From assembly GCA_030615855.1 (NCBI GenBank), contig JAUWYL010000034.1, positions 1-8,059 of the forward strand: a DNA stretch of 8,059 bases. The letters are read 5' to 3'. The stretch is from a bacterium (GTDB taxonomy: Bacteria > UBP18 > UBA7526). Position numbers and translations under genes: made by a program. The number at the start of each line of letters is the position of its first letter. Position 1 is the stretch's first letter. This document shows positions 3,708 through 7,028 of this stretch, piece by piece. The notes under the pieces are model-generated. The model worked only from the letters and a program-made list of their open reading frames with translations. It made no database searches and was not told the origin of the DNA.

Positions 3708-4658
3708 ATGCCGTCTTTATTAAGAGTAGAGGATATTAAGAAGTATTTTCCCGTAGAAAGAGGAATATTTAAAAAAGAGGTGGCCCGGATAAGGGCGGTG
3801 GATGGGATAAGTTTCTCTTTAGATAAAGGAGAGACCTTAAGTCTGGTAGGGGAATCTGGCTGTGGGAAGACGACTGTAGCAAGGTTAATCCTCAGGCTCC
3901 TTGAGCCAACGAGTGGAGCTATCTACTTCAAGGGGCAAAATATTTCAACTCTTGATAGGAAAGAAATGTTCAAAGTTCGGGGGCTAATGCAGATTATATT
4001 CCAGGACCCCTTTGGCTCCCTCAATCCTCGTCAGAGGGTGGGTGATATTATTGGGGAAGCACTCTCTATCCATAATTTGGCCCAGGATAGGAGAAGAGAA
4101 AGGATTGGCGAACTATTGAGAACTGTGGGACTGGAGGAGGAGTGCATCTGGCGCTATCCTCACCAGTTTAGTGGTGGCCAAAGGCAGCGAATTGGAATCG
4201 CTAGGGCTTTAGCAGTAGAGCCAGAACTCATGGTCTGCGATGAACCCATCAGTGCTCTGGATGTCTCTATTCAGGCTCAGATTCTGAATCTACTTAAAGA
4301 ATTACAGGAAAGATTTGATCTTTCCTTCATCTTCATTGCCCATGATTTAGCGGTAGTCAAGCATATCAGTCACAGAGTAGTCATAATGTATTTGGGAAAG
4401 ATTGTGGAACTGGCCGAAACAGAAGAGCTCTATAGTAATCCTCTTCATCCCTATACCAAGGCCCTCCTTTCTGCTATTCCTACCATAGAGAAAAGAGAAA
4501 GGATTGTTCTCAGAGGAGAGATTCCCGACCCTTCCCATCCTCCGAAAGGCTGTCGTTTCCATACCAGATGCCCCATAGCAAAACCAGAATGCAGCGAAAG
4601 AGAACCAGCACCCAAAGAGGTCACTAAAGGCCATCTCGTCTCTTGTTATTTGTTTTAG
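3708..4658 (+). CDS. dppF: Peptide ABC transporter ATP-binding protein, DppF type
   Basis: A 316-residue ATPase, partner of the DppD-type subunit. The N-terminal KKYFPVERGIFKKEVARIRAVDGISF is typical of DppF/OppF. Motifs are Walker A GESGCGKT (48-55), Q-loop IIFQDP with Gln99 followed by SLNPR, signature FSGGQ (154-158), Walker B LMVCDE (174-179) and His212 in FIAHDL. The C-terminal extension has HPYTKALLSAIP, GCRFHTRCP, and cysteines 282, 288, 295 and 313, with exactly the CX5CX6CX17C spacing seen in the DppD partner. It starts at the ATG after GAGG. It lies 133 bp after dppD, the gap consisting of repeats, and probably ends the transporter operon. No clear intrinsic terminator follows it before the panB promoter region. 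Confidence 0.95.
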   Translation: MPSLLRVEDIKKYFPVERGIFKKEVARIRAVDGISFSLDKGETLSLVGESGCGKTTVARLILRLLEPTSGAIYFKGQNISTLDRKEMFKVRGLMQIIFQDPFGSLNPRQRVGDIIGEALSIHNLAQDRRRERIGELLRTVGLEEECIWRYPHQFSGGQRQRIGIARALAVEPELMVCDEPISALDVSIQAQILNLLKELQERFDLSFIFIAHDLAVVKHISHRVVIMYLGKIVELAETEELYSNPLHPYTKALLSAIPTIEKRERIVLRGEIPDPSHPPKGCRFHTRCPIAKPECSEREPAPKEVTKGHLVSCYLF

Positions 4659-4830
4659 TTTGTGTTTCTTTAATTCGCGTTCATTCGCGTTCTCTTTATT
4701 CGTGACAATTCGTGTTTGTTTATAGCGTAATTGCCCAACAGTTCGTGTTGATTCGTGTCCTCTTAATTCGTGTTGTTTCGTGTTTGTTTATTACATTTTC
4801 GCCCACCAGTTCGTGTTGTTTCGTGTTTAC
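4659..4830 (+). repeat. TTCGTGT-word region with two 61-bp direct repeats
   Basis: The 172 bp after dppF consist mostly of ATTCGTGT-like and ATTCGCGT-like words in a single orientation. Within it, 4698-4758 and 4766-4826 are 61-bp direct copies separated by 7 bp. I count 49 of 61 identical bases with no gaps. Each copy has TTCGTG words at both ends and a central GTTTAT...GCCCA.CAGTTCGTG segment. No coding frame or hairpin terminator is evident. It is immediately upstream of the panB-side promoter. Confidence 0.8.
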
Positions 4831-4831
4831 C

Positions 4832-4860
4832 TTGCATTTAAAATAAAAGTATGGTATTAT
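4832..4860 (+). promoter_or_regulatory. Sigma70-type promoter of the panB leader
   Basis: TTGCAT (4832-4837) and TATTAT (4855-4860) are separated by exactly 17 bp of A/T-rich sequence. The -10 matches 5 of 6 consensus bases and the -35 matches 4 of 6. Transcription would begin near 4867, giving a leader that runs into the terminator at 4987-5019. It is the best promoter candidate for panBC. Confidence 0.65.
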
Positions 4861-4866
4861 TAATTG

Positions 4867-5019
4867 TACCGCTTGGATCCGGCTTTAGACGGACTGGGAC
4901 GGAAGTAATTAGTTGGTTAGATGGTTAGTTAGCTAGTTGGTTAGAAAAGTCCTAACAAACCAGCAAACCACCCAACTATTTTAGTGGCCTTCTGTCTTAA
5001 GCGGCAGAAGGCTTTTTTT
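4867..5019 (+). ncRNA. Structured panBC leader RNA, candidate attenuator or riboswitch
   Basis: A roughly 150-nt segment lies between a good promoter and an intrinsic terminator. Pairings seen: TCCG/CGGA (4878-4881 with 4890-4893); an imperfect long hairpin with TAGTTGG (4910-4916) opposite CCAACTA (4972-4978) and 4932-4944 opposite 4952-4964 with two mismatches; and two pairings that compete with the terminator. These are 4895-4905 with 4989-4999 (11 consecutive pairs, 3 of them G-U), and CCGCTT (4869-4874) with AAGCGG (4999-5004). Competing terminator and antiterminator states are the hallmark of transcription attenuation. Location before panB suggests sensing of a pantothenate-pathway compound. 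A pan RNA motif is known upstream of pantothenate genes in other bacteria, but I do not recognise its consensus. It could instead be an independent small RNA. Confidence 0.5.
4987..5019 (+). terminator. Intrinsic terminator in the panB leader
   Basis: GCCTTCTG (4987-4994) pairs perfectly with CAGAAGGC (5005-5012) across a 10-nt loop, and seven T residues follow (5013-5019). It stands about 150 bp before panB and after the promoter, so it would stop transcripts before the gene unless bypassed. Confidence 0.85.
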
Positions 5020-5022
5020 ATG

Positions 5023-5155
5023 GACACGGATCTACACGGATAAAATAAACGGATGGGCACAGATAAATCCGTGGCAATGCTTAACTATTTATGCTCTCTA
5101 GGATGCTAACGAAGTGCATCCTGTAATCCGTAACAAATCCGTGACTATCCGTGTC
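5023..5155. repeat. ACACGGAT / ATCCGTGT foldback repeat before panB
   Basis: The left half carries GACACGGAT (5023-5031), ACACGGAT (5034-5041) and ACGGAT (5049-5054). The right half carries the inverse words ATCCGTG (5067-5073), ATCCGTA (5126-5132), ATCCGTG (5138-5144) and ATCCGTGTC (5147-5155). The outermost words are perfect 9-bp inverted copies. The right end abuts the panB Shine-Dalgarno sequence. No convincing second promoter was found in the segment. Confidence 0.75.
5100..5122. repeat. Small hairpin with TAACGAAG core
   Basis: AGGATGC (5100-5106) and GCATCCT (5116-5122) are perfect inverted 7-bp arms around TAACGAAGT. The core is identical to the TAACGAAG at 1666-1673. The inverse TTCGTT stands in a comparable small stem at 1596-1612. 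Confidence 0.7.
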
Positions 5156-5167: not shown

Positions 5168-6010
5168 ATGGAAAAGATGACAATTACTAAATTGAGGGAA
5201 ATGAAAGAAAAAGGGAAGAAGATTGTGATGCTCACCTGTTACGACTATCCCACGGCCTTAATCATGAATGAGGTGGGGATCGATATTCTCTTAGTTGGTG
5301 ATTCCCTGGGCATGGTCGTCTTGGGATATGAGGATACCTTGCCGGTGACTATGGAGGATATGATAAGGTATACCCAGGCCGTGGCAAGGGGGAATAAGAA
5401 CCCTCTCCTGGTGGCGGATATGCCTTTCCTGTCTTATGAAGTTAGTAAGAATGAGGCCATTAAGAATGCGGGAAGACTAATTAAGGAGGCCGGGGTCCAG
5501 GCGGTGAAGACCGAAGGGGGCAAGGAGATGGCGGAGATTATAAAGGCCATCGTTGATGTTAAGATCCCGGTTATGGGTCATATCGGACTTACTCCCCAAT
5601 CAGTCCATAAGTTAGGGGGATTCAAGGTTCAGGGTAAAACCGCTCCCCAGGTAAAAAAATTGATTGAGGATGCCCAGGCCTTAGAAGAGGCGGGGGTCTT
5701 CTCTATTGTATTAGAATGCGTTCCTGCTGAAGTAGCAAGGATGATTACCGAAAGGGTTAAGGTGCCTACCATTGGTATCGGCGCTGGCCCTTATTGCGAT
5801 GGCCAGGTTCTGGTAACCCACGATCTATTGGGATTATTTGATAGATTCGTTCCCAAGTTTGTAAAGCAGTATGCCGATTTAAGAAAAATTCTAAGAGAAG
5901 CCTTTACAAAATTCAAGGAAGAGGTAGAAAGGGGAGAGTTTCCTTCCCGAGAACATTCCTTTAAGATAAAGGAAGAAGAACTTGCGAAAGTCAAGGATGA
6001 GAAACGGTGA
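5168..6010 (+). CDS. panB: 3-methyl-2-oxobutanoate hydroxymethyltransferase (ketopantoate hydroxymethyltransferase, EC 2.1.2.11)
   Basis: A 280-residue cytoplasmic enzyme of pantothenate synthesis. It transfers a hydroxymethyl group from methylenetetrahydrofolate to 2-oxoisovalerate, giving ketopantoate. The TIM-barrel family motifs are complete: MLTCYDYPTA (21-30), VGDSLGMV with metal-ligand Asp45, ADMPF with Asp84, VKTEGG with Lys114 and Glu116, MGHIGLTPQS with His138, VLECVP with Glu183 as the probable catalytic base, and TIGIGAGPYCDGQVLV (201-216). The C-terminal GEFPSREHSF is also typical. The start after GGAGGG gives the usual N-terminus; the longer frame from 5114 would add 18 residues derived from repeats. 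panC follows in the same direction. Control by the upstream leader terminator is likely. The gene ends in CGG TGA, the first unit of a degenerate heptamer repeat. Confidence 0.97.
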   Translation: MEKMTITKLREMKEKGKKIVMLTCYDYPTALIMNEVGIDILLVGDSLGMVVLGYEDTLPVTMEDMIRYTQAVARGNKNPLLVADMPFLSYEVSKNEAIKNAGRLIKEAGVQAVKTEGGKEMAEIIKAIVDVKIPVMGHIGLTPQSVHKLGGFKVQGKTAPQVKKLIEDAQALEEAGVFSIVLECVPAEVARMITERVKVPTIGIGAGPYCDGQVLVTHDLLGLFDRFVPKFVKQYADLRKILREAFTKFKEEVERGEFPSREHSFKIKEEELAKVKDEKR

Positions 6011-6182: not shown

Positions 6183-7028
6183 ATGAAAATAATCAAAAAG
6201 ATTAAAGAGATGCAGAAGATAGCGGATGGGGTAAGAATGAAAGGAAAAATCATCGGCCTTGTTCCTACTATGGGCTACTTTCATAAAGGGCACCTGAGCC
6301 TGATGAGGCAAGCAAGAAGAAAAAGCGATTTATTGGTCGTCTCCATCTTTGTCAATCCCACCCAGTTTGGTCCAGGAGAAGATTTTAAGAGTTATCCCCG
6401 CGATTTAAGACGCGACCTCCGATTGGCAAGAGAGATTGGAGTTGATGTTATCTTTTCCCCTGCAGTAAAAGAGATGTATCCCAAAGGATTCCTTACCCAT
6501 GTTGATGTGGGGGAGGTTGGCTCCATCTTGGAAGGGGCCTCACGGCCAGGACACTTCAGAGGGGTGGCTACGATAGTGGCTAAGTTATTCAATGCCGTAA
6601 AGCCCCATCTTGCCTACTTCGGCCAGAAGGACTTCCAGCAGTCAGTGGTCATTAAGAAGATGGTAGAAGACCTTGATATGGATGTGGAGATTGTTGTCTT
6701 ACCCACCATAAGGGAGAAGGATGGCCTGGCCACAAGTTCCAGGAATGTTTATCTAACAAAAAAAGAGAGGAAGATAGCCCCTGTTCTCTATAAATCTTTG
6801 AAATTGGCTGAAAAACTGATAAAAGAAGGGGAGAGAGATAGCAGAGAGATTATTAGAAGTATGGAGGAGTTAATAGAAAAAGAGAAGTTAATAAAATTAG
6901 AATACATCGCTATCACTGACCCTGGAACTTTAAAAGAAATAAGAAGAGTAAAAAGAGAAGTGAACGTTTCTCTTGCAGCAAAGATAGGCCGAGCCAGACT
7001 CATTGACAATATTACCATCAAGATTTGA
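6183..7028 (+). CDS. panC: Pantothenate synthetase (pantoate-beta-alanine ligase, EC 6.3.2.1)
   Basis: A 281-residue cytoplasmic ligase that joins pantoate to beta-alanine using ATP through a pantoyl-adenylate. It has the nucleotidyltransferase-fold motifs in order: LVPTMGYFHKGHLSL with the HxGH signature (His34, His37), SIFVNPTQFGPGEDF (54-68) with Asn58 and Gln61, YPRDL, GASRPGHFRGVATIVAKLFN (118-137), AYFGQKDFQQ (144-153), and the KMSKS-like loop IREKDGLATSSRN (176-188). Length and start are normal for the family. AGAGG 5 bases upstream supports the ATG at 6183. It follows panB by 172 bp, so the two are probably co-transcribed despite the repeat-filled gap. panD, which makes beta-alanine, and a ketopantoate reductase are not in the window. 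Confidence 0.97.
   Translation: MKIIKKIKEMQKIADGVRMKGKIIGLVPTMGYFHKGHLSLMRQARRKSDLLVVSIFVNPTQFGPGEDFKSYPRDLRRDLRLAREIGVDVIFSPAVKEMYPKGFLTHVDVGEVGSILEGASRPGHFRGVATIVAKLFNAVKPHLAYFGQKDFQQSVVIKKMVEDLDMDVEIVVLPTIREKDGLATSSRNVYLTKKERKIAPVLYKSLKLAEKLIKEGERDSREIIRSMEELIEKEKLIKLEYIAITDPGTLKEIRRVKREVNVSLAAKIGRARLIDNITIKI

Follow-up and report, generated by a model that had tools for sequence, protein, structure and literature searches.

The window analysed here, an 8,059-nucleotide stretch from a bacterium of the candidate phylum UBP18, carries panB and panC on its forward strand, preceded by a leader (4866–5019) that contains a hairpin of the pan-motif type and an intrinsic terminator (Table 1). Searches at genome scale were run on the 1.38-Mb draft genome, which comprises 45 contigs. 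Upstream of the leader lies an oligopeptide-type ABC transporter operon that ends at 4658. The gap between the terminator and panB (5023–5155) holds a 19-nt inverted repeat (GACACGGATCTACACGGAT and ATCCGTGACTATCCGTGTC, 84% complementary), and the intergenic regions (4674–4828) are rich in further low-complexity repeats. Within the phylum, panB was found in two of six genomes, the window's own and G003. The closest relative of the window's panB, at 91% identity, is at locus L032 of bacterium UBP18_UBA7526, which provides the only sister leader with panB.

Table 1. Coordinates of features at the panBC locus (positions in the window)
Feature	Position	Strand	Basis or remarks
Promoter	4832–4860	+	Weak −35 TTGCAT at 4832–4837 (3/6 consensus); extended −10 TGGTATTAT at 4852–4860
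Putative second-pairing partner CCGCUU	4869–4874	+	With AAGCGG at 4999–5004; sequence; without family support
Single pan-motif hairpin (RF01749 type)	4869–4906	+	Covariance models, MFE fold
Antiterminator 5′ strand, made up of the lower part of the pan 3′ strand and the conserved pan tail (UGGGACGGAAG)	4895–4905	+	Pairing with 4989–4999
Internal hairpin separating pan from terminator	4908–4981	+	Fold −19.0 kcal/mol; low-complexity GGTTAG-type repeats
Intrinsic terminator: hairpin 4986–5013 and T run	4986–5019	+	Terminator scan; −16.3 to −17.9 kcal/mol
Antiterminator 3′ strand: terminator 5′ arm and part of its loop	4989–4999	+	Pairing with 4895–4905
panB, 3-methyl-2-oxobutanoate hydroxymethyltransferase	5168–6010	+	TIGR00222, 360.8 bits, cut-off 207.6 (NCBIfam)
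panC, pantoate--beta-alanine ligase	6183–7028	+	TIGR00018, 348.4 bits, cut-off 212.8 (NCBIfam)

A single pan hairpin at the start of the leader

An earlier note on this DNA had described a promoter and two GACGGA words in this region, and had been unable to match the leader to the known pan motif. The coordinates given there all held good. For the promoter, the −35 element is poor but the −10 is extended, and the latter has a kept counterpart in L032 (TGATAGTAT). A consensus promoter scan of the window did not return the site. Transcription is predicted to start at around 4866–4868, and the pan hairpin begins a few bases from that point. In the MFE fold of this hairpin, positions 4869–4876 and 4878–4881 pair with 4890–4898 and 4900–4902 around a loop at 4882–4889, leaving A4877 and A4899 bulged, as they also are in both covariance-model alignments. 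Both GACGGA words are present and sit in the 3′ strand of this stem. The hairpin fits the pan consensus CYGCYYGGAUCC...GGACYGGGACRG, and, as expected of a pan member, it stands upstream of pantothenate synthesis genes, with panB and panC 3′ of it.

Covariance models overturned the failure to match the motif. The Rfam comparison proposed at that stage did return pan, with RF01749 aligning at 4833–4906 with 28.7 bits (E = 0.0039, the best match of the genome), but the score falls under the gathering score of 36.2 bits, a curation threshold rather than a biological feature. In the window alignment the upstream half of RF01749 falls on promoter sequence, and the score plausibly stays below the cut-off because a model that takes in a further, upstream hairpin was matched to a window with just one. 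Rfam matches in the window other than pan were judged to be due to chance. The same is probably true of two pan-model matches in phylum genome G004 (16.6 and 15.6 bits), of which the one inspected adjoins genes for CBS-domain membrane proteins.

Leaving out the window, we aligned the scored hairpins of 46 pan leaders of other genomes and made a single-hairpin covariance model from them. It placed the motif at 4869–4906 (32.7 bits; E = 3.9e-8 across the loci searched); over the whole genome this site was the only match (E = 4.1e-6). Neither bulged A varies across the 46 leaders; 95.6% of their stem pairs are standard, and 49 cells changed on both sides where shuffles gave 12.8. In place of the tandem arrangement found in most, not all, members, the window has a single match. 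The leader at 4866–5019 is thus a member of the pan family.

Competing pairings in the window

Between the pan hairpin and panB, three elements drawn in the earlier note were recovered: an intrinsic terminator, placed there at 4987–5019; a long internal hairpin; and an 11-pair complementarity between the two antiterminator strands. The terminator stem has 11 pairs, the longest among 8 terminator-like sites in the window, a number to be set against 8.1 expected by chance. On the plus strand, the stretch from 4658 to 4986 has no other terminator-like site, as might be expected if this terminator ended the ABC transporter operon and panB had a promoter downstream of it. We judged that arrangement highly improbable, as the promoter ahead of the terminator is conserved in the sister species, and as the terminator itself stands 330 nt past the operon and directly follows the pan motif, whose strand is matched by the terminator 5′ arm.

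The 11 consecutive pairs formed by this match (8 Watson–Crick and 3 G–U; −12.5 kcal/mol) are real, and the same pairing relation is found in other pan leaders. Because the pan tail and the lower part of the pan 3′ strand serve as the antiterminator strand, the antiterminator opens the lower pan pairs, so that pan and antiterminator are mutually exclusive; by computation, the leader thus has the attenuator feature of exclusive terminator and antiterminator structures, with the sensor strand lying in the antiterminator. Taken alone, the 11-pair run is modestly beyond chance, being reached by 3–5% of dinucleotide shuffles of the leader; it is the recurrence of the pairing in other pan leaders that carries conviction. 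The terminator arm of the window pairs with its own pan strand at −14.5 kcal/mol, a value equalled by 2.4% of background terminators and by none of 60 swapped ones, which ranks it with the best of the leaders. On its own, the window makes a case for a switch that is suggestive, not proven. The spacer from pan to terminator, which contains the internal hairpin, is 79 nt in the window compared with about 10–25 nt in most pan leaders. The internal hairpin is missing from L032, and was rejected as a dispersed element, the rest of the genome yielding a single weak, partial match (81% over 37 nt).

We folded growing prefixes of the window RNA, taking the pan and terminator states from dot-bracket structures. 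The pan hairpin was in the MFE structure up to 4994, the antiterminator had a probability of 0.98–1.0 in prefixes ending at 4999–5008, and from 5012 the terminator had formed and the pan hairpin was back. The thermodynamic end state of the full leader was always pan plus terminator, so timing or a ligand would have to drive any switch. In the prefix ending at 5004, the antiterminator was joined by a second pairing (4869–4874 with 4999–5004), which the earlier note had likened to the P1 stem of a riboswitch and which, on the strength of this fold, might be an essential part of the switch. The pairs do exist, but we rejected them as a pan-family feature: the six-pair run was present by chance in 12% of shuffles, AAGCGG was absent from the terminator loops of all other pan leaders examined, and matched leaders were no better than swapped ones (3.93 versus 3.82). 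The pairing is also absent in L032. A P1-like role is thus very unlikely; at most, the second pairing may extend the antiterminator locally.

In the sister leader L032, the promoter, CCGCCUGGAUCCGGCUUUAGACGGA and GGCCUUCUGUCUUAA are retained, and exactly the 10 nt that separate the two GACGGA words in the window are absent, probably deleted between the direct repeats. The disrupted pan stem scores 10.3 bits, and a matching terminator 3′ arm is missing. The leader's AGACGGAAG is still able to pair with CUUCUGUCU. Within L032:2086–2262, the arm GGCCUUCUGUC is predicted to pair with the pan remnant or, alternatively, to cover the GGGAGG ribosome-binding site of panB. This one sequence could represent decay, or a change from termination to translation control.

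Terminator arms and downstream genes in other pan leaders

Our comparison set comprised 158 other pan leaders, mostly from a group around Carboxydocella (Firmicutes), with 22 from a group around a Chloroflexi genome. Counting the window, an intrinsic terminator follows pan at a distance of at most 130 nt in 138 of 159 leaders, usually 9–25 nt after the pan end, and the 5′ arms of these terminators are of CCUUYCGG, CCUUCUG or UCCUUCUG types, the complement of pan tails. For 55 representative leaders that share few 8-mers, the terminator arm paired with its own pan strand at −12.58 kcal/mol compared with −10.55 kcal/mol under permutation (z = −6.4; 0 of 20,000 permutations), with the z-scores being optimistic because leaders share ancestry. 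Unrelated terminators (n = 209) paired with the pan strand at a mean of −8.5 kcal/mol. Within the Chloroflexota subset alone, own-leader pairing was not significant (z = −1.2, n = 8). Compensating cases, in which an unusual tail goes with an equally unusual arm, include L232 (tail AGACAGGU with arm GCCUGUCU), L140 (tail CAGAGGGA with arm UCCUUCUG) and L241 (tail CGGAAAGCGU with arm GUGCUUUUCG). Agreement across 55 dissimilar leaders with different pair types would be hard to explain otherwise.

When the search was left free, the 18-nt stretch that best pairs with the terminator arm was centred between 30 nt before and 10 nt after the pan end in approximately 33–36 of the 55 leaders, and within the last 10 nt of pan in 23 of them. 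The match of the terminator arm to the pan strand would account for the GAAGG tail, which is conserved though unpaired in the Rfam model. In prefix folds of the other leaders, the expected number of antiterminator pairs was 6.3 before the 3′ arm was made and 1.3 afterwards, compared with 4.5 when downstream parts were swapped; at least 5 such pairs before the 3′ arm were seen in 35 of 55 leaders, versus 38% after swapping. The trend seen in the window is thus present in these leaders too, but weaker.

The gene following pan in 82 leaders was most often a Rossmann/DUF2520 oxidoreductase (39), then panB (11), panC (8), ECF-type transporters (6) and S58 peptidases (5), with panD, PanS-type transporters and a type III pantothenate kinase as single or double cases. 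That one motif stands ahead of genes for synthesis, transport and a kinase, with pantothenate as their likely common compound, would narrow the effector to pantothenate or a later product such as CoA.

The Rossmann/DUF2520 gene (L114, L116, L157 and about 36 more) plausibly encodes a non-canonical ketopantoate reductase. The S58 peptidase (PF03576) genes follow pan in L251, L252, L255, L260 and L267 of the Chloroflexota set; some members of this family release N-terminal β-alanine, a pantothenate precursor, and those after pan may be an unrecognised source of it. Pan leaders also precede OPT-family transporter genes (L186 and L207), the substrate of which might be a pantothenate-related compound. 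Near the start of ECF-type transporter genes, pan hairpins occur in L221, L225, L234 and L246, in none of which a clearly pan-matching terminator was found, and L221 and L225 have a ribosome-binding-site-like GGGAGG inside the pan tail; this suggests that the same sensor is used there for translational control.

A proposed attenuator and its relation to known systems

We consider it probable that the leader is a pan-motif transcription attenuator for panBC, most likely of the OFF type. In the nascent RNA, the pan hairpin (4869–4902) would fold first. Once the polymerase had passed around 4999, the terminator 5′ arm would invade the lower half of pan and form the antiterminator (4895–4905 with 4989–4999), allowing transcription to run on into panB. 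If pan were instead held closed, most likely by the bound end product (pantothenate or CoA) or by a protein sensing it, the 5′ arm would be free to pair with its own 3′ arm, the terminator would form and panBC would be off. An attenuator for pantothenate synthesis, as put forward in the earlier note, is the best-supported reading of the leader, its main alternative pairing being backed by the 158 other leaders. Computation yielded the pan hairpin and the terminator, the exclusive pairings with their counterparts in other leaders, and the prefix-fold order; we infer that termination is regulated in the cell, in the OFF direction and by such an effector. The leader is thus a real, functional-looking pan attenuator, whose mechanism is seen again in other pan leaders.

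How pan would be held closed can be read in more than one way. The motif could tentatively be a metabolite-binding OFF riboswitch for pantothenate or CoA that keeps the terminator arm from reaching the conserved 3′ strand of pan, with the window carrying a minimal single-hairpin version. It is a serious possibility that the hairpin binds a regulatory protein that steers the same choice between terminator and antiterminator, with no small molecule binding the RNA; this is compatible with all the pairing results, suits a simple bulged stem and is proposed in the main text of PMC2864571. The single hairpin of the window means that strictly dimeric tandem binding is not required, and no candidate protein is linked to the motif, the genes after pan in the 82 leaders being mainly for synthesis and transport. 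A third reading dispenses with the signal, the hairpins setting a fixed read-through. The complete-leader fold, always pan plus terminator, and the broken pan stem tolerated in the sister species are consistent with it; a two-A bulged stem found across phyla, with strong covariation and matched terminator arms, is more than such a device needs, and we regard constitutive attenuation as rather unlikely.

In the main text of Weinberg et al. 2010 (PMC2864571), pan was classed as an RNA and as cis-regulatory, with riboswitch status undecided, and a dimeric protein-binding motif was suggested, most pan RNAs being tandem. In Paenibacillus riograndensis, a panB-panC-panD operon carries a pan element in its 5′ UTR according to an RNA-seq study (PMC5670726), and a 2022 review called the lack of a CoA-sensing riboswitch class a notable blind spot (PMC9971707). 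The leader in the window resembles the pan motif of that main text (RF01749, PMC2864571) in its two conserved bulged A's, its place upstream of panB and panC and its predicted location in a 5′ UTR, and differs in having one hairpin rather than a tandem and a score below the Rfam gathering score. It also has an explicit terminator/antiterminator platform, where the main text of PMC2864571 describes none for pan. The motif itself was known; new here is its occurrence in UBP18, outside the phyla that the main text reported for pan in 2010.

Known since 2010, pan is still an orphan regulatory RNA: we found neither a ligand nor an assigned expression platform for it in the open-licence literature, nor, the 2010 supplements aside, a description there of terminators matching the pan strand. 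The leader-by-leader match of terminator arms is a concrete, mutable prediction of how pan acts, and its added value is a testable expression platform.

Protein-responsive attenuators of the trp/TRAP and pyr/PyrR type stand before biosynthesis genes and set a site in the leader RNA in competition with an antiterminator, and the window shows the same kind of competition; unlike in those systems, we know of no binding protein for pan. OFF riboswitches of the FMN, lysine and SAM-I type also use an antiterminator/terminator platform, in which closure of the sensor frees the terminator. The window differs from them in having one bulged hairpin as its sensor, where they have a multi-helix aptamer, and in that its effector is putative; it resembles them in that a conserved sensor strand is common to the sensor fold and the antiterminator.
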